Shown piece after piece: positions 12,858 to 21,130 of a stretch of 64,000 bases of DNA. This DNA comes from Sulfurimonas sp. (GTDB taxonomy: Bacteria; Campylobacterota; Campylobacteria; Campylobacterales; Sulfurimonadaceae). The notes below the pieces were generated by a model, which was not told the DNA's origin, searched no databases, and saw nothing but the letters and a program-made list of their open reading frames with translations. The position numbers and the translations under genes are program-made. Where the stretch lies: positions 1-64,000 of the forward strand of contig QNZS01000026.1 in the NCBI GenBank assembly GCA_003978465.1, read 5' to 3'. How positions within the stretch are numbered: position 1 is the stretch's first letter; the number at the start of each line of letters is the position of its first letter.

Positions 12858-13483
12858 AATACCAAAACCTAGAACTAGAAAATGTGTTTATCCCCGCTAA
12901 AGTGCCTTCAAAAAAATTAATGATTATTTTACATGGTAGAGGAGACTCTTCTGAGGGCTTTTTAGGCTTCCCTCCATTTTTAGCACTTGATGATATGAAC
13001 TACATACTTTTTGATGCACCTTTTGAATACTTCACCGGCCACTCATGGTATCAACTCCCTCCTGAGCAACTCCCAGGTATAGAGTACTCATCAAAACTTC
13101 TCACAAAAGACTTAGACACTCTTTTTGAGAGTGACTTTAATGCCAATGAGAGTTTTCTTTTTGGTTTTTCTCAAGGTTCACTACTTACATTTGAGTTTGG
13201 AGCGAGATACCATAAAGTTCTTGCGGGTTATATCGCTATCAGTGGTTACATTTATGATGTTCCTACACTGCTAGAAGAGATGAACCCAGATGTAAACGCG
13301 AAGAATTGGTTATGTACTCACGGAACTAGCGATCCAGTTTTATCATATGAGACATCTAAAGAGCAGGTTGAACAACTTCAAGATGGTGGTTTTGACATAG
13401 AGTTTGTTACTTATGACAAAGACCATAGTATTGATAGGGATGAGTTAAGTATGATATCAGAGTGGATTAAAAAGAGAAAGTAA
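12854..13483 (+). CDS. Phospholipase/carboxylesterase (alpha/beta hydrolase)
   Basis: A 209-residue serine hydrolase of the Abhydrolase_2 type. The oxyanion-side motif HGRGDSSEGF lies near residue 27, the nucleophile elbow is GFSQGS near 103, an Asp in HGTSDPVL lies near 157 and the catalytic His is in KDHSID near 194. Substrate specificity cannot be read from sequence. It is coupled to the radical SAM gene by an ATGA overlap and is followed by a strong terminator. Confidence 0.88.
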   Translation: MKYQNLELENVFIPAKVPSKKLMIILHGRGDSSEGFLGFPPFLALDDMNYILFDAPFEYFTGHSWYQLPPEQLPGIEYSSKLLTKDLDTLFESDFNANESFLFGFSQGSLLTFEFGARYHKVLAGYIAISGYIYDVPTLLEEMNPDVNAKNWLCTHGTSDPVLSYETSKEQVEQLQDGGFDIEFVTYDKDHSIDRDELSMISEWIKKRK

Positions 13484-13494
13484 CTCACTGTTAA

Positions 13495-13521
13495 ACATAC
13501 ACTTAATTTTTAAGTGTATGT
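13495..13521 (+). terminator. Rho-independent terminator after the esterase
   Basis: A perfect 12-bp stem (ACATACACTTAA / TTAAGTGTATGT) with a 3-base TTT loop begins 12 bases after the stop and is followed by T-rich sequence. It probably ends the gyrA-to-esterase run. Confidence 0.8.
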
Positions 13522-13666
13522 CTTCATTTTATATATATATCCCACTTTTAGAGCTACAACATCATATATAGTATTTTTATCTATTTAAGTTTGTATATCT
13601 ACAAATAAATTTTAAATCAATCTTTAGTTAAAATATGAATAAAATAAAATTAATTGTCTAAAGTAG

Positions 13667-14005
13667 ATGCAGTATCTAAAACCTGAAAATAAAGCTATAA
13701 ACTACAACGATGAAACTGTATGACTTACACAAAAGCTTGTTTCTAAACTCTTTGATATGTCCGTAGCTACTGTAAATAAACATCTAAAAAATATCTTTAA
13801 AACAAATGGATTACAAGAAAATTCAGTTATTAGGAAATTTCTAATAACTGCTAGTGATGGTAAAAATTATAATACTCAATATTATAATTTAGATGCTATT
13901 ACTCCTCTAGGATATAGAATAAACTCCAACAAAGCCACAGAGTTTAGACGATGGGCAACACAGGTCTTAACTCACTTTCCTATGTACTTGATAATGATAG
14001 CCTAA
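13667..14005 (+). pseudogene. RhuM-family protein remnant
   Basis: From an ATG at 13667 the frame reads like the N-terminus of a RhuM/virulence-type protein (YNDETV, LTQKLVSKLF, then VNKHLKNIF, SDGKNYNTQYYNLDAI, GYRINSNKATEFRRWATQVL) but has TGA at 13721 where the family has Trp, and it breaks off after ATQVL into an unrelated short tail. Full-length relatives are about 300 residues, so roughly two thirds is missing. RhuM proteins are common in accessory islands and beside mobile elements. The rest of the 518-base gap between the esterase and the next gene is AT-rich with no other feature seen apart from the terminator. Confidence 0.82.
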
Positions 14006-15097: not shown

Positions 15098-17197
15098 ATG
15101 ATGTCATCAAGTAACTTAGTTTCAGTACTAGTAAAAAAAACTTCACTCAAATATGAACAAATACAAAATATATTAAAACTCTTAGATGAGGGTTCAACTA
15201 TTCCTTTTATCGCGAGATACCGTAAAGAGATGACAGGTGGAGCTGACGATGAAGTACTTCGTAAGTTTGAAACACTATACATAAGTTCTAAAAAACTACT
15301 AGAGCGAAAAGAAGAGGTCTCTCGTTTGATAGGAGAAAGAGCTACTTTAACGGAAAGTATAAAAAGAAGTATAGATGAGGCTGATGATCTTAGGACTTTA
15401 GATAGTATCTACAGACCCTACAAAGAGAAAAAGTCCTCTCGGGCGACTGTTGCCATGGCAAAAGGTCTGAGCTCTTTAGCGAATATCCTACAAAGTGCAA
15501 GACTTTCAAAAAACGACTTCATGAAGGAAGCTAAAAGGTTTGTAAAAAAAGATGTGACTTCTGTTGATGAAGCAGTCAAAGGTGCGCAAGATATACTCGC
15601 TGAGAGATATGCTGAACAAGTAAAAGAAAGAGAAGCTATACGAAACTCAATGTTGCAGTATGGTTTGATAGAGACAAAAAAAACAAAAACTTTTAATGAG
15701 TCTGGTGTTTACAAAAACCTAGCTCCCAGTTCTCAAAAAGTAGCCTATATCCCTTCTCATAGATACCTTGCCATCATGAGGGGTACAAAAGAAAAAGAGT
15801 TGTCTGTAAAGATAAGTGTAGATACAGAGCGAATCTTAAAAAATATCAAACACTATAAAATCCCTAAAGATGCTTTTAGTTCAAAAGACTTACTATTTTT
15901 AGCTTACAAAGATGGACTTAAACGCTTACTCCTTCCTTCTATTGAGAGAGAAGTACAAAACGAACTCAAAGAAAAAGCTGACATCGCTGCTATCTCTGTT
16001 TTTGGAAAAAACCTTTCACAACTTCTCATGACTCCACCTGTGACTAAGATGGTACTTTTAGGTGTAGACCCAGCGTTTGTGAGTGGCTGTAAACTTGCTG
16101 TCATAGATGAAAATGGAAACTATTTAGAATCTGCAGTCATTTACCCAACACAACCAAGAAACGACTATGAAAACTCTAAAGCTGTCATTTTAAAACTCTC
16201 TAAGAAGTATAAGATAAGTGGTATAGCCATAGGAAATGGTACTGGTTCAAGAGAGACACAAGAGTTTTTTGCAAAAATAAATATACAAGAGAAGACTAAC
16301 CTCAAATATACAGTAGTCTCAGAAGCAGGAGCATCAGTTTACTCAGCTTCGAAGCTTGCACAAGATGAGTACCCTAACTTGGATGTAACTATAAGAGGTG
16401 CTATCTCAATAGCCCAAAGACTCCGTGACCCTATGGCAACACTTGTAAAAATAGACCCTAAATCTTTAGGAATCGGACAGTACCAACACGATGTAGACCA
16501 AAAACTCCTGCAAAAAAGACTCGATGATGTAACTAGTGACCTTGTAAACAGAGTAGGAGTAGATATCAATTCGGCCTCAGCATCCCTTCTTTCTCATGTA
16601 GCAGGTATTGGTGCGAAAATTTCAAAAAATATCATAACTTACAGAGATGAAAATGGAAATTTTACTAGTAAAAATGGGCTCTTAAAAGTAAAAGGTTTAG
16701 GGGAAAAAGCATACGAGCAAGCAGCAGGATTTATACGTATAAAAGATACAAAAAATATCTTTGATAATAGCGGTATCCACCCTGAGAGTTATGAGATAGC
16801 AAAAAAGTTAGTAAAACTAGACTTAGATACTTTAAATATCAAAGAGACTGCTCAAGTTTTGGGAACTGGTGAAGCTACTCTTAGAGACATCATAAAAGAG
16901 TTACAAAAACCAGGATTTGACCCTAGAGAAGACCTGCCTATCATCCCTTTTAAAGAAGGACTTACCGATATAAAAATGCTTAAAGAGGGTAGTTTTGTTT
17001 CAGGAGTGGTGAGAAATATAACTGATTTTGGTGCATTTGTGGATATTGGGCTTAAAAATGATGGCATGATTCATATCTCTAAAATGAGTGTAAAAAGAAT
17101 CAAGCATCCACTAGAAGTACTTTCACTCAACCAATACCTTCCCCAAATTGAAGTAGTCTCAATTGAGAAAGACAAAGTTGGACTTAGTCTAAACTAA
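15098..17197 (+). CDS. tex: Tex-family RNA-binding transcription accessory protein
   Basis: A 699-residue Tex protein with the usual order: N-terminal helix-rich region, YqgF-like RNase H-fold domain (about 325-450, LLGVDPAFVSGCK), helix-hairpin-helix segment (about 485-560) and a C-terminal S1 RNA-binding domain (about 625-697, GSFVSGVVRNITDFGAFVDI). Tex binds nucleic acids and affects transcription and stress tolerance. GAAGGAAGA precedes a double ATG; the first is used. Its 3' end overlaps the convergent PNPOx-like gene by 14 bases. Confidence 0.93.
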   Translation: MMSSSNLVSVLVKKTSLKYEQIQNILKLLDEGSTIPFIARYRKEMTGGADDEVLRKFETLYISSKKLLERKEEVSRLIGERATLTESIKRSIDEADDLRTLDSIYRPYKEKKSSRATVAMAKGLSSLANILQSARLSKNDFMKEAKRFVKKDVTSVDEAVKGAQDILAERYAEQVKEREAIRNSMLQYGLIETKKTKTFNESGVYKNLAPSSQKVAYIPSHRYLAIMRGTKEKELSVKISVDTERILKNIKHYKIPKDAFSSKDLLFLAYKDGLKRLLLPSIEREVQNELKEKADIAAISVFGKNLSQLLMTPPVTKMVLLGVDPAFVSGCKLAVIDENGNYLESAVIYPTQPRNDYENSKAVILKLSKKYKISGIAIGNGTGSRETQEFFAKINIQEKTNLKYTVVSEAGASVYSASKLAQDEYPNLDVTIRGAISIAQRLRDPMATLVKIDPKSLGIGQYQHDVDQKLLQKRLDDVTSDLVNRVGVDINSASASLLSHVAGIGAKISKNIITYRDENGNFTSKNGLLKVKGLGEKAYEQAAGFIRIKDTKNIFDNSGIHPESYEIAKKLVKLDLDTLNIKETAQVLGTGEATLRDIIKELQKPGFDPREDLPIIPFKEGLTDIKMLKEGSFVSGVVRNITDFGAFVDIGLKNDGMIHISKMSVKRIKHPLEVLSLNQYLPQIEVVSIEKDKVGLSLN

Positions 17198-17606
17198 AAT
17201 CTACAACTATTTTTTTGCCAAAACCTAAAGAGTTATCAGTCAGTTTAAAGTGTTTCACTTTTATCTGCCATAGTTTAGGGTTTAGTTCTTTTGCATATGG
17301 AAAATCTTTCAAATAGAGTTCTTCTAGTTCTTTATCTACTAAAGAAATGAACTCACCACTAAACTGTAAACCTTGTATCTCAGCTACATTCTTTGTCTCA
17401 AGTAAAATATTGCCTGCTATGTTTTTGTTTAAAAGAATATTTTGTATATGGAAGGTTTTCTCACTACTTGCAACTATAAAACTTTTTGTATTTGTGTCAT
17501 ATGAAAAAAAAAGAGAACAGACACTTAACTCATCTGGGGTAGATGTAGCTAGACTCATAACATGGTGTAAACCTATAAAGTACTCAATTCTCTCTAAATC
17601 AGTCAA
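17184..17606 (-). CDS. PNPOx-fold (pyridoxamine 5'-phosphate oxidase-like) protein
   Basis: A 140-residue single-domain split-barrel protein, with the N-terminal strand pattern MSLATSTPDELSVCSLFFSYD typical of FMN-binding PNPOx-like proteins. Members bind FMN, F420 or haem, or have lost cofactor binding; nothing here fixes which. It starts at TTG two bases after the preceding small gene, so it looks like the last member of the ovoA-ovoB unit. That position hints at a redox-related role but does not prove one. It overlaps the end of tex on the other strand. Confidence 0.7.
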   Translation of the reverse strand: MTDLERIEYFIGLHHVMSLATSTPDELSVCSLFFSYDTNTKSFIVASSEKTFHIQNILLNKNIAGNILLETKNVAEIQGLQFSGEFISLVDKELEELYLKDFPYAKELNPKLWQIKVKHFKLTDNSLGFGKKIVVDFSLD

Positions 17607-17608
17607 AA

Positions 17609-17830
17609 CTAGAATCTATCTAAAAACTGGTTCATACTTGCTGCACTTGTAATTGAGCATTTATTTAACATCATTATAGCTGTATCATCATTTTTTAAAG
17701 TATCAAAAAGCTCATCAGGATTATGCATGTTATAGTAACTTTTCATAAATTCTATAAGTCTTTCAAAACTATCACTTCGTATACTCATTTTTTTATGTTC
17801 TTTATATTCATCCAACTCAATTCTAGTCAA
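17609..17830 (-). CDS. Small conserved-looking protein of unknown function
   Basis: A 73-residue soluble protein with no recognised domain, starting at TTG behind AAGGA with an 8-base spacer. It is helical, rich in charged residues, and has a segment DTLKNDDTAIMMLNKC. It lies 25 bases after ovoB and 2 bases before the PNPOx-like gene on the same strand, consistent with one operon. No function is proposed. Confidence 0.65.
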   Translation of the reverse strand: MTRIELDEYKEHKKMSIRSDSFERLIEFMKSYYNMHNPDELFDTLKNDDTAIMMLNKCSITSAASMNQFLDRF

Positions 17831-17855
17831 ATTAATATCCTTATTTTAATAATAG

Positions 17856-19031
17856 CTATTTTAGCGAAAGTGCTTTGTCTAACTTCTTAATAATCTCTAA
17901 TATTTTCTCTTGCGATACGGCAAAATTCAAACGCATATAACCTAAACCCTCTTTACCAAAGCTAATTCCTGCATTTAATCCAAGTTTAGCATCTTGGATA
18001 AAAAATTCTCTGAGTTTTTTATCCCTAAGACCTAAACCACTACAATCAAGCCATGCAAGATAAGTCCCTTCAATAGGCGTAATCTTTAAAAGTTTTGGAT
18101 ATTTTTGACAAAGAGTACGAAGCATTTCATAGTTTTTATAAAGATGTACTTTCAGGTCTTCTAACCACTCTTTTCCATCTGTATAAGCTGCTTCGTAAGC
18201 AACATGAGAAAGGACAGAACCTTGTGCAAAATGTACTTTTTTATATGCTTTTTTAAATCTCTCTCTTAAATCTTCATCTTGAATGATTACACTACTCATA
18301 GCAAAACCAGCCATATTAAATGTTTTTCCAACACCTATAGCTGTTAGTGTAATTTTTTTAGCCGCCTCACTTAATGTAGTAAAAACTGTATGCTTGTTTG
18401 GGGTGTACACAAGGTCAGAATGAATCTCATCTGCGAACACCACTATATTATGCTCGACACAAACATCTAAAATAGCTTCAAGTTCTTTTTTTTTCCATAC
18501 ACGTCCAACAGGGTTATGAGGAGAACAGAGTAGGAGAAGTTTAGTATTAGGTTTTATTTTTGATTTTAGATCTTCTATATCAAAAGTATACAGACCATCA
18601 CTATTTACTTTGAGGGGATTTTTTATAAGGGAGCGGTTTAGTCCATTTACAGAGTGAAAAAAAGGAGAGTACACAGGTGTTTGCACAATTACACCCTCGC
18701 CTTCTTCACTAAAAGCTTCAATAGCTACAGCCATAGATGCAACTACAGAATGAGAGTAAAACATATCTTCAAGTTCAAACTCAAAGTTATGCTCTTGCTT
18801 CATCCAAGTACGTTGTGCATTAAAAGCACTAGTTGGTACCTCTTCATAACCAACTATTGGATGCTCTAAGCGTTTTTTCACTGCATTTAATACAAAATCA
18901 GGTGTGTCTATATCCATATCGGCAACCCAAACGGGTAAAACATCGTCTGTACCAAAAAGTTCTTCTCGTAAAGTGTACTTCTCTGCGTTTGTATCTTTTC
19001 TACAAGCACTTACAGAGAAATCATAAGACAC
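17856..19031 (-). CDS. ovoB: PatB/MalY-type PLP lyase, probable OvoB sulfoxide lyase
   Basis: A 391-residue class-I/II aminotransferase-fold enzyme of the cystathionine beta-lyase type. The pyridoxal phosphate lysine is in GKTFNMAGF (about residue 236), with ADEIHSDLVY upstream as the cofactor-stacking segment. The GTG at 19031, whose first base is the last base of the ovoA stop, is preferred because GGAAG lies just upstream and the protein then begins SYDFS like its relatives; a TTG at 19046 is the alternative. In ovothiol synthesis a PLP lyase cleaves the cysteine-histidine sulfoxide made by OvoA to the thiol. Direct overlap with ovoA strongly supports this role; otherwise it would be called a generic C-S lyase. 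Confidence 0.85.
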   Translation of the reverse strand: MSYDFSVSACRKDTNAEKYTLREELFGTDDVLPVWVADMDIDTPDFVLNAVKKRLEHPIVGYEEVPTSAFNAQRTWMKQEHNFEFELEDMFYSHSVVASMAVAIEAFSEEGEGVIVQTPVYSPFFHSVNGLNRSLIKNPLKVNSDGLYTFDIEDLKSKIKPNTKLLLLCSPHNPVGRVWKKKELEAILDVCVEHNIVVFADEIHSDLVYTPNKHTVFTTLSEAAKKITLTAIGVGKTFNMAGFAMSSVIIQDEDLRERFKKAYKKVHFAQGSVLSHVAYEAAYTDGKEWLEDLKVHLYKNYEMLRTLCQKYPKLLKITPIEGTYLAWLDCSGLGLRDKKLREFFIQDAKLGLNAGISFGKEGLGYMRLNFAVSQEKILEIIKKLDKALSLK

Positions 19032-21130
19032 TACTTTTTCTTCCAAACACTTACTTCAGAGATAGTATGTTGGTACTTTCTCGCTGTCTCTTTGATAACA
19101 AACTCTAAGTCTTGAGTATGGATAAGCTCAAACTTTTCACCTAAAACTTTTTCTAATGAATCAATAGTTTTAACCTCTTCTCCTGCCTCATTAGTAAATC
19201 CACCTAACCAGAACTCTTTTGCAGTAGAGCTTTCTTGCCATGTGTATGGAGAAGTGATAACTAAGATACCATCTTCGTTAAGTCTCTCATTTATAGTCTC
19301 TAAAAATAACATAGGATTATAAAGTCTATCGATTAAGTTTGTAGCCATGATCAAATCATAACCTGTAAAGTTTGCTTTTAAGTTACAAGCATCACCCTGC
19401 CAAAAAGAGACTTTATCTTTTAAGTTCTCATAACCTAAGTCTTCTATTGTGATCTTTTTTTGTACGGCTATTTCACCCTCTTCTTTAGTACTAAACGCAA
19501 GATAACCATCATCTTTTAGTTTAGCTCCAGCCTGAACAAAACGTACAGAGAAGTCGATACCCTCAACATGGTCAAACTCACGAGCAAGCTCGTATGTTGC
19601 TCGTCCAGTTGCACAACCTAAATCTAATGCTTTTGTATTGTTTACTGCAAATGCGCTTGCTACTCTTGCTGTACTTTGTGCAAAATTTTCTACTCCAAAA
19701 TGTGAAGCTCCATATTGAAACTCACAGTACTGTGAAACTAACTCATCGCTCTCATATATATCTGACAATTCTTCTTCCTTTTTTTGACTTATAACATATC
19801 TAAAACCTGCATTTTGATAAAAATGCTTTCTAAATGCATAACGTGAATGTTTTGTGATAAGATTACCACTACTTGCCCATGACGAACCGAGTATCAGAGC
19901 ATGTTTTTCATCAAATGTTGGCACAGAAAAATCATCATATGCCTCATGAACTACAAAACCCTCAAATGCTCTGATAGGTGTACGGCTCCACTGCCATACA
20001 TTACCAACTACATCATAAATACCGTTAAAATTAAACTCATTTACAGGACAAGATGAGGCATAATGATAAAAATCAAGATTAGCTCTACTCTCATGAAATG
20101 CTGGTATATCTTTTAAGAGAGCCTGCTCATAAATAGCTCTATACTCTACTTCACTTGGCAACTGATAAGTAAAACCATCTTTTTGACTTTTGTAACGACA
20201 AAATGCTTCTGCTTCGAGTGCATTTACATCTACTGGCCAATCTTGGGGCATATCAATAATACTACTTAATGTTCTATATTTATAGTCATTTTTCTCTTTG
20301 ATCCAAAATGATGGATGTAGGGCTTTAGAGTTTTTTAAAAACTCTTTACCCTCATCATCCCAGAATTCTACTGTCTCATATCCAGCATCTTTAACGAATG
20401 AGAGGAACTCACCATTACTTACAAGATATTTAGCAGCCTTAAAACTCTCAACATTCTCTTCATAAATACCATACTCATTATCCCAACTATAGATAGGATG
20501 TGAGTTATTGACTCCGAGTTGTATATCTACTGTGTTTATATCTATCATCTCATTCTCGGGTGCATGGTTACTATGCTCACACACTTTAAACTCTTCTACA
20601 TCTTTTACCAACTCTATTGGCATTTGACGGTGAAGAACTAAAGAAGTCTCAAGATGAATCCTCTCATGCTCTATCCCCATAAGGATAACCCACAAAGGAG
20701 ACTCTTTTGTAATAGGCAAAGTAAGTGGTAAGTCTTCTATAAGTGTGTTGATTAAACTACGTACTTTTTGTCTATACTCACGAACCGCGTCTACTTTTGG
20801 CCAGTTGTATTTACTACCATCCATCTCATCCCAAGACATTTCATCTACACCAACAGCAAAAACTGACTCATAGTCTGCATTTATTCGTTCTGTTATTATC
20901 TTCATACTCATAAGTTTATTTATAAAAAATGTAGCAGTATGCCCAAAATAAAATATCATTGGATGACGTGTTATTTCAGATTTTTCATAAAAAGCTGTAT
21001 CGTCTTTTAAAATTGTAAAAACTTTCTCGAACAAGTCAGATGTATTATTAAAATACTCTTTTATTTCCAAGCGCTTGGTAGTTACACTTTCACCATCTAG
21101 TGAAACAGTATATTTACTTAGTTTACTCAA
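19031..21130 (-). CDS. ovoA: 5-histidylcysteine sulfoxide synthase / N1-methyltransferase
   Basis: A 699-residue bifunctional enzyme. The N-terminal DinB-like domain has the iron-binding motif HERIHLE (155-161), then comes an FGE-sulfatase-like domain (about 195-450, with VGNVWQW and GFRYV), then a SAM methyltransferase domain with ALDLGCATGRA at 501-511. OvoA joins cysteine to histidine oxidatively and later methylates the imidazole to give ovothiol A, a low-molecular-weight antioxidant. It heads a four-gene unit with ovoB and two small genes, and diverges from pgeF across only 32 bases. Confidence 0.93.
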   Translation of the reverse strand: MSKLSKYTVSLDGESVTTKRLEIKEYFNNTSDLFEKVFTILKDDTAFYEKSEITRHPMIFYFGHTATFFINKLMSMKIITERINADYESVFAVGVDEMSWDEMDGSKYNWPKVDAVREYRQKVRSLINTLIEDLPLTLPITKESPLWVILMGIEHERIHLETSLVLHRQMPIELVKDVEEFKVCEHSNHAPENEMIDINTVDIQLGVNNSHPIYSWDNEYGIYEENVESFKAAKYLVSNGEFLSFVKDAGYETVEFWDDEGKEFLKNSKALHPSFWIKEKNDYKYRTLSSIIDMPQDWPVDVNALEAEAFCRYKSQKDGFTYQLPSEVEYRAIYEQALLKDIPAFHESRANLDFYHYASSCPVNEFNFNGIYDVVGNVWQWSRTPIRAFEGFVVHEAYDDFSVPTFDEKHALILGSSWASSGNLITKHSRYAFRKHFYQNAGFRYVISQKKEEELSDIYESDELVSQYCEFQYGASHFGVENFAQSTARVASAFAVNNTKALDLGCATGRATYELAREFDHVEGIDFSVRFVQAGAKLKDDGYLAFSTKEEGEIAVQKKITIEDLGYENLKDKVSFWQGDACNLKANFTGYDLIMATNLIDRLYNPMLFLETINERLNEDGILVITSPYTWQESSTAKEFWLGGFTNEAGEEVKTIDSLEKVLGEKFELIHTQDLEFVIKETARKYQHTISEVSVWKKK

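Follow-up and report, generated by a model that had tools for sequence, protein, structure and literature searches.

The route to ovothiol through OvoA, OvoB and OvoC has already been described (PMC12631010, PMC9103826), OvoA-like proteins without the methyltransferase domain have been mentioned, and a Sulfurimonas has been cited among the bacteria with ovothiol genes (PMC9103826). A genuine accessory gene beside ovoA, the one that encodes the 5-thiohistidine N-acetyltransferase of Proteiniphilum, was found by neighbourhood analysis, in which a gene found with ovoA in more than 50 genomes was kept and neighbours that also occur without ovoA were rejected (PMC12631010).

Here, the ovothiol locus of a Sulfurimonas sp. 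is compared with these systems. The window, i.e. the whole stretch of DNA analysed, comprises 64 000 nucleotides of contig QNZS01000026.1. The identities and order of the genes, together with the patterns of their co-occurrence and retention across genomes, make it likely that the locus consists of a standard ovothiol pair, a YhbP protein that is a neighbour rather than a pathway component, and a small, perhaps accessory protein that is tied to ovoAB more probably than to YhbP.

The ovothiol locus

Four tightly packed genes, ovoA, ovoB, the gene for a 73-residue protein (hereinafter S73) and yhbP, occupy positions 17184–21130, all on the minus strand (Table 1).

Table 1. Genes of the ovothiol locus in the window.
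Gene	Position	Strand	Features
ovoA	19031..21130	minus	TTG start, 699 aa; TIGR04344 and TIGR04345 over cut-off; motifs; alignment A3
ovoB	17856..19031	minus	PatB-type PLP C-S lyase; GTG start; TIGR04350 over cut-off
S73	17609..17830	minus	TTG start, 73 aa; five-helix protein; alignment A1
yhbP	17184..17606	minus	TTG start, 140 aa; PNPOx-like split barrel; NF002900 match

The four-gene arrangement proposed in the sequence-only reading is confirmed by the gene coordinates: the ovoA stop codon overlaps the GTG start of ovoB in a TAGTG junction (19031), a gap of 25 nt separates ovoB from S73, whose start codon has AAGGAT about 8 nt ahead of it, and yhbP starts 2 nt past the S73 stop. The GTG of TAGTG is the simplest choice for the start of ovoB; an in-frame TTG lies 15 nt upstream. 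Apparently, none of the four genes starts with ATG: the start is TTG for ovoA, S73 and yhbP, and GTG (or TTG) for ovoB.

The N-terminal part of OvoA matches TIGR04344 with 630 bits (cut-off 400), its C-terminal SAM methyltransferase part, OvoC, matches TIGR04345 with 322 bits (cut-off 170), and OvoB matches TIGR04350 (PatB) with 523 bits (cut-off 340). OvoA carries the iron motif HERIHLE, with H155, H159 and E161 of the HxxxHxE pattern invariant in alignment A3, and the methyltransferase motif LDLGCATGR; in most relatives, ovoB comes directly after ovoA. The identification of the two genes as an ovoA-ovoB pair therefore stands, given that both proteins exceed the curated cut-offs and that the genes are adjacent and overlap. 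By family assignment, OvoA is predicted to be a 5-histidylcysteine sulfoxide synthase fused to the OvoC N-methyltransferase, and OvoB is the predicted lyase for the cysteine-histidine sulfoxide. OvoA would join cysteine to histidine, using iron and oxygen, OvoB would release 5-thiohistidine, and the OvoC domain would methylate it. This is an ordinary ovothiol locus, with the standard ovothiol A pathway.

Between ovoA and ovoB, 7 of the 29 genomes belonging to the window's genus carry additional genes. Loci with extra genes at ovoA/ovoB are L078, L081, L082, L157, L160, L183, L186, L189, L191 and L197, and L086 has at least one extra gene between ovoB and yhbP. Many of the extra genes are of the restriction-modification or another defence type (cytosine methylases, NgoPII, Eco47II, MmeI, ApeA, KilA-N, ORF6N). 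A functional connection of the genes in this position was considered and rejected because those that could be identified are mostly of this type; for the same reason, they appear to be insertions, and the ovoA-ovoB junction looks like an insertion hotspot.

Across the Sulfurimonadaceae, the locus is part of a conserved block: dxs, pgeF, ovoA, ovoB, S73, yhbP, dut, ABC ATPase, crcB, plsC. In most relatives, dut lies downstream of yhbP in the same direction. In the window, the 3' end of yhbP overlaps by 14 nt (17184–17197) a convergent gene, tex, at the place that dut holds in relatives, and the dut of this genome is on other contigs, away from yhbP; the abutment of yhbP on tex is a local rearrangement. 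The earlier statement that yhbP ends the unit is thus correct for the window but not for most relatives, where the co-directional dut comes next. A scan for promoters and terminators gave matches at chance level only, so transcription units were not drawn from it; yhbP is probably co-transcribed with ovoAB here.

Split ovothiol synthases in the same family

In another genus of the Sulfurimonadaceae, that of genome G170, most OvoA proteins are short (open frames of about 448–516 aa) and come without the methyltransferase part; such loci include L166:391-2232, L268, L269, L270 and L271. A stand-alone OvoC over cut-off is present in 18 of the 41 genomes of this genus, in some of them beside a gene of the ADP-ribosylglycohydrolase family, and in about half of the 41, no OvoC exceeds the cut-off. 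In G170 itself, OvoC is fused to an ADP-ribosylglycohydrolase-family protein (613 aa in total). In a Sulfurimonadaceae MAG (L210:12884-14201), a gene of the ADP-ribosylglycohydrolase family (12884-13798) lies downstream of ovoAB-S73 and overlaps the yhbP frame at its start. In the literature searched, with partial coverage, no paper joining ovothiol with ADP-ribosylglycohydrolase was found. The split ovothiol synthase with a partner of this family is probably the more promising lead.

Identity of the PNPOx-type protein

The last protein of the locus matches the NCBIfam YhbP family (NF002900) over 133 residues with 95.5 bits (E 2.4e-27); this does not reach the equivalog cut-off, which is 176, so that the protein qualifies as a YhbP-family member and not as a proven equivalog. 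It is 33% identical to E. coli YhbP over 137 aa, including the stretch TDNSLGFGKK (the TDN-LGFGKK motif is common to both); the alignment of the family comprises 31 sequences. On the strength of the NF002900 match and the identity to E. coli YhbP, a new protein family was rejected: the protein is, by sequence similarity, a Campylobacterota form of E. coli YhbP. The PNPOx fold named in the sequence-only reading gives only a weak match to Pfam PNPOx_N (E 0.058) and is upheld by a confident AlphaFold2 model of a PNPOx-type split barrel (mean pLDDT 94.3). A Foldseek search with this model retrieves split barrels that have haem, flavin or F420 as ligands, and, judging from the model, YhbP would most likely be a small redox protein with flavin or haem as its cofactor. 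No paper on YhbP/UPF0306 was found in the literature searched, with partial coverage.

Genomes without ovoAB

Gene loss in close relatives offers natural experiments. Many inner branches of the YhbP tree are weak, so only one strongly supported pair, G063 and G076, was used. Along 5.8 kb of sequence that runs through yhbP, the two genomes are 91.7% identical. G076 has the complete series ovoA-ovoB-S73-yhbP; G063 has no match to ovoA, and a 3' remnant of S73 runs into an intact yhbP, with a tRNA-like sequence (seen by eye) upstream. The two yhbP genes differ by 28 synonymous and 11 replacement codon differences, with most changes at third positions, a pattern of codon changes that points to purifying selection on the G063 YhbP. 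In G049, too, ovoA is missing while YhbP is kept, and yhbP is preceded by an S73-like remnant. In the two ovoA-less genomes, the remnants before yhbP lie at L094:6152-6607 and upstream, and in L093 upstream of 6674. An S73 remnant is also found after ovoB in L188 (8740-8830), although ovoAB is intact there.

S73, a small helical protein

The alignment of S73 (A1) has 15 members and six invariant columns, and the AlphaFold2 model consists of five helices (mean pLDDT 90.6). Comparisons with Pfam and PDB, by sequence and by fold, gave no convincing match, and membership in a known domain family was accordingly rejected. In the pairs where dN/dS was computable, the ratio is mostly low, similar to that of ovoB: six pairs have values of 0.08–0.23, and one, G419/G441, has 0.48. 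S73 is a genuine protein family of the Sulfurimonadaceae without a recognisable homologue. It could be a small helical accessory, a regulator or an adaptor.

The phyletic pattern ties S73 to the ovothiol genes incompletely. In the 30 family genomes with S73, ovoB directly precedes it in 28 and yhbP directly follows it in all 30. For its place in the ovothiol locus, claimed in the sequence-only reading, the evidence is mixed: gene order speaks for it, but several ovoA genomes lack S73 or have it only in decayed form, and the ovoA-less G034 carries it, next to YhbP. In a tentative reading, which we rate below even chances, S73 would serve ovothiol synthesis in the Sulfurimonadaceae as a dedicated accessory, a small helical regulator or scaffold of OvoA/OvoB. 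The position after ovoB and the ovoB-like dN/dS agree with this, as do the persistence of S73 with ovoA in three genomes that have no YhbP match (the completeness of these genomes is not stated, and the absence of YhbP is accordingly provisional) and its reduction to mere remnants in the two genomes that lack ovoAB and keep YhbP. Against it stand the absence of S73 from the ovoA genomes G230, G239 and G248 and from other Sulfurimonadaceae genera, the remnant in L188, the intact gene in G034 and the distant S73-like genes (about 30% identity) in the ovoA-less G022, where the gene lies beside dprA, and G038. In its most specific form, with S73 as a Sulfurimonadaceae-specific, five-helix regulator or scaffold of OvoA/OvoB that has no Pfam or PDB homologue, the proposal is possible but doubtful. 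An effect of S73 on OvoA or OvoB, if there is one, would place it among the very few known proteins that act on thiohistidine metabolism outside the core enzymes.

It is rather unlikely that S73 is instead a partner or regulator of YhbP, unrelated to ovothiol. The unbroken adjacency to yhbP in the whole-genome set, which includes the ovoA-less G034 and G413, where ovoAB has moved, is what one would expect of such a partner, but S73 is absent over most of the range of YhbP, and the fates of the two genes diverge in both directions, S73 persisting in the three genomes without a YhbP match and decaying in the two that keep YhbP. A tie of S73 to ovoAB is more likely than one to YhbP.

YhbP as a neighbour of the ovothiol genes

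Among 249 genomes of the order, ovoA, counted when over cut-off, is present in 102 and YhbP in 89; both genes occur in 37 genomes, ovoA only in 65, YhbP only in 52 and neither in 95. In these counts, which ignore relatedness, there is no co-occurrence of the two genes (odds ratio 1.04, p 0.89), and none outside the Sulfurimonadaceae either (odds ratio 0.58, p 0.10), where the 19 genomes with both genes never have them close together (0/19). Within the Sulfurimonadaceae, as delimited by the nearest named records, 46 of 50 genomes examined have both genes, and in 39 of the 46 these lie within about 10 kb of each other. Of the others, four belong to a single genus and have ovoA at a great distance from yhbP; in G413, ovoAB is on a separate contig, in G405 the two genes are on different contigs, and in G484, where linkage may still hold, the contig ends at this point. 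All three ovoA-less members of the family, a small sample (G034, G049, G063), have YhbP. YhbP is widespread among bacteria, many of them without ovothiol: E. coli, for instance, has YhbP, and a control search there finds no ovoA. Of the 80 named ovoA loci that were fetched, about 38 are, going by record titles, from outside Campylobacterota, and within the fetched flanks (<1 kb to 8 kb per side) none of these has YhbP or S73, with the proviso that the YhbP profile was built from Campylobacterota and could miss a very divergent YhbP.

The neighbourhood of yhbP is better described by dut. This gene is close to yhbP in 41 of 45 Sulfurimonadaceae loci, including those of the ovoA-less G034, G049 and G063, of G192 and G395 (the two loci examined from the genus with distant ovoA) and of G413. 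In other families, dut lies within about 3 kb of yhbP in 6 of 11 loci, five of them in ovoA-less genomes. Thus, dut is a steadier neighbour of yhbP than ovoA, also in genomes where ovoA is missing or lies at another place; the association of yhbP with dut reaches more widely than that with ovoA and is probably older. YhbP would then be a resident of this neighbourhood with a general, ovothiol-independent job and no part in the pathway, and the ovothiol genes lie upstream of yhbP within the conserved Sulfurimonadaceae block. In some loci of other Campylobacterota families (L105, L108, L110, L103), yhbP has another neighbour in the same direction, a gene for a DUF1294 protein (weak match in L110) or a VTT-domain membrane protein.

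A place for the PNPOx protein in the ovothiol system, as suggested in the sequence-only reading, is therefore not supported despite the linkage within the family: the two genes do not co-occur, they are unlinked in 19 of 19 genomes outside the family, and YhbP stays intact in family members without ovoA. As far as YhbP is concerned, this is the outcome that the sequence-only reading had named as refuting it. A dedicated role of YhbP, alone or together with S73, as a partner in the ovothiol system of the Sulfurimonadaceae, e.g. as a flavin protein recycling ovothiol disulfide, is improbable: the linkage in 39 of 46 genomes, the near-overlapping genes and a modelled split barrel of a kind that can bind flavin or haem would suit such a role, but YhbP exists in E. 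coli, where no ovoA is found, there is no YhbP match in three ovoA genomes of the group, and dut is the steadier neighbour. Against the neighbour-only reading, tight or overlapping ORFs and such strong linkage can reflect shared function, and a general flavin protein may have been recruited to the ovothiol locus in the Sulfurimonadaceae. The locus shows that close spacing of genes and synteny throughout a family may be misleading, for here a conserved ‘ovothiol operon partner’ fails the co-occurrence test.

Comparison with known systems

YhbP resembles E. coli YhbP (‘putative FMN binding protein’, UPF0306) in length, in the shared motif and in the split-barrel model, and differs from it in gene neighbours, which in E. 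coli are yhbO and yhbQ. The haem-binding split barrels of the HugZ/ChuZ/HutZ and At3g03890 types share the fold of the model (TM to query about 0.68–0.83 at a Foldseek probability of 1.00), but the sequence identity is just 14–17%, and a haem or flavin cofactor of YhbP is a prediction from the fold. Compared with the accessory acetyltransferase of Proteiniphilum, YhbP belongs to the kind of neighbour that was rejected in that study (PMC12631010). The pathway genes themselves are no different from those of the bacterial ovoA-ovoB pathway to ovothiol A, with the same fused OvoA and adjacent PatB-type lyase (PMC9103826, PMC12631010); what is lineage-specific is only the flanking S73 and yhbP.
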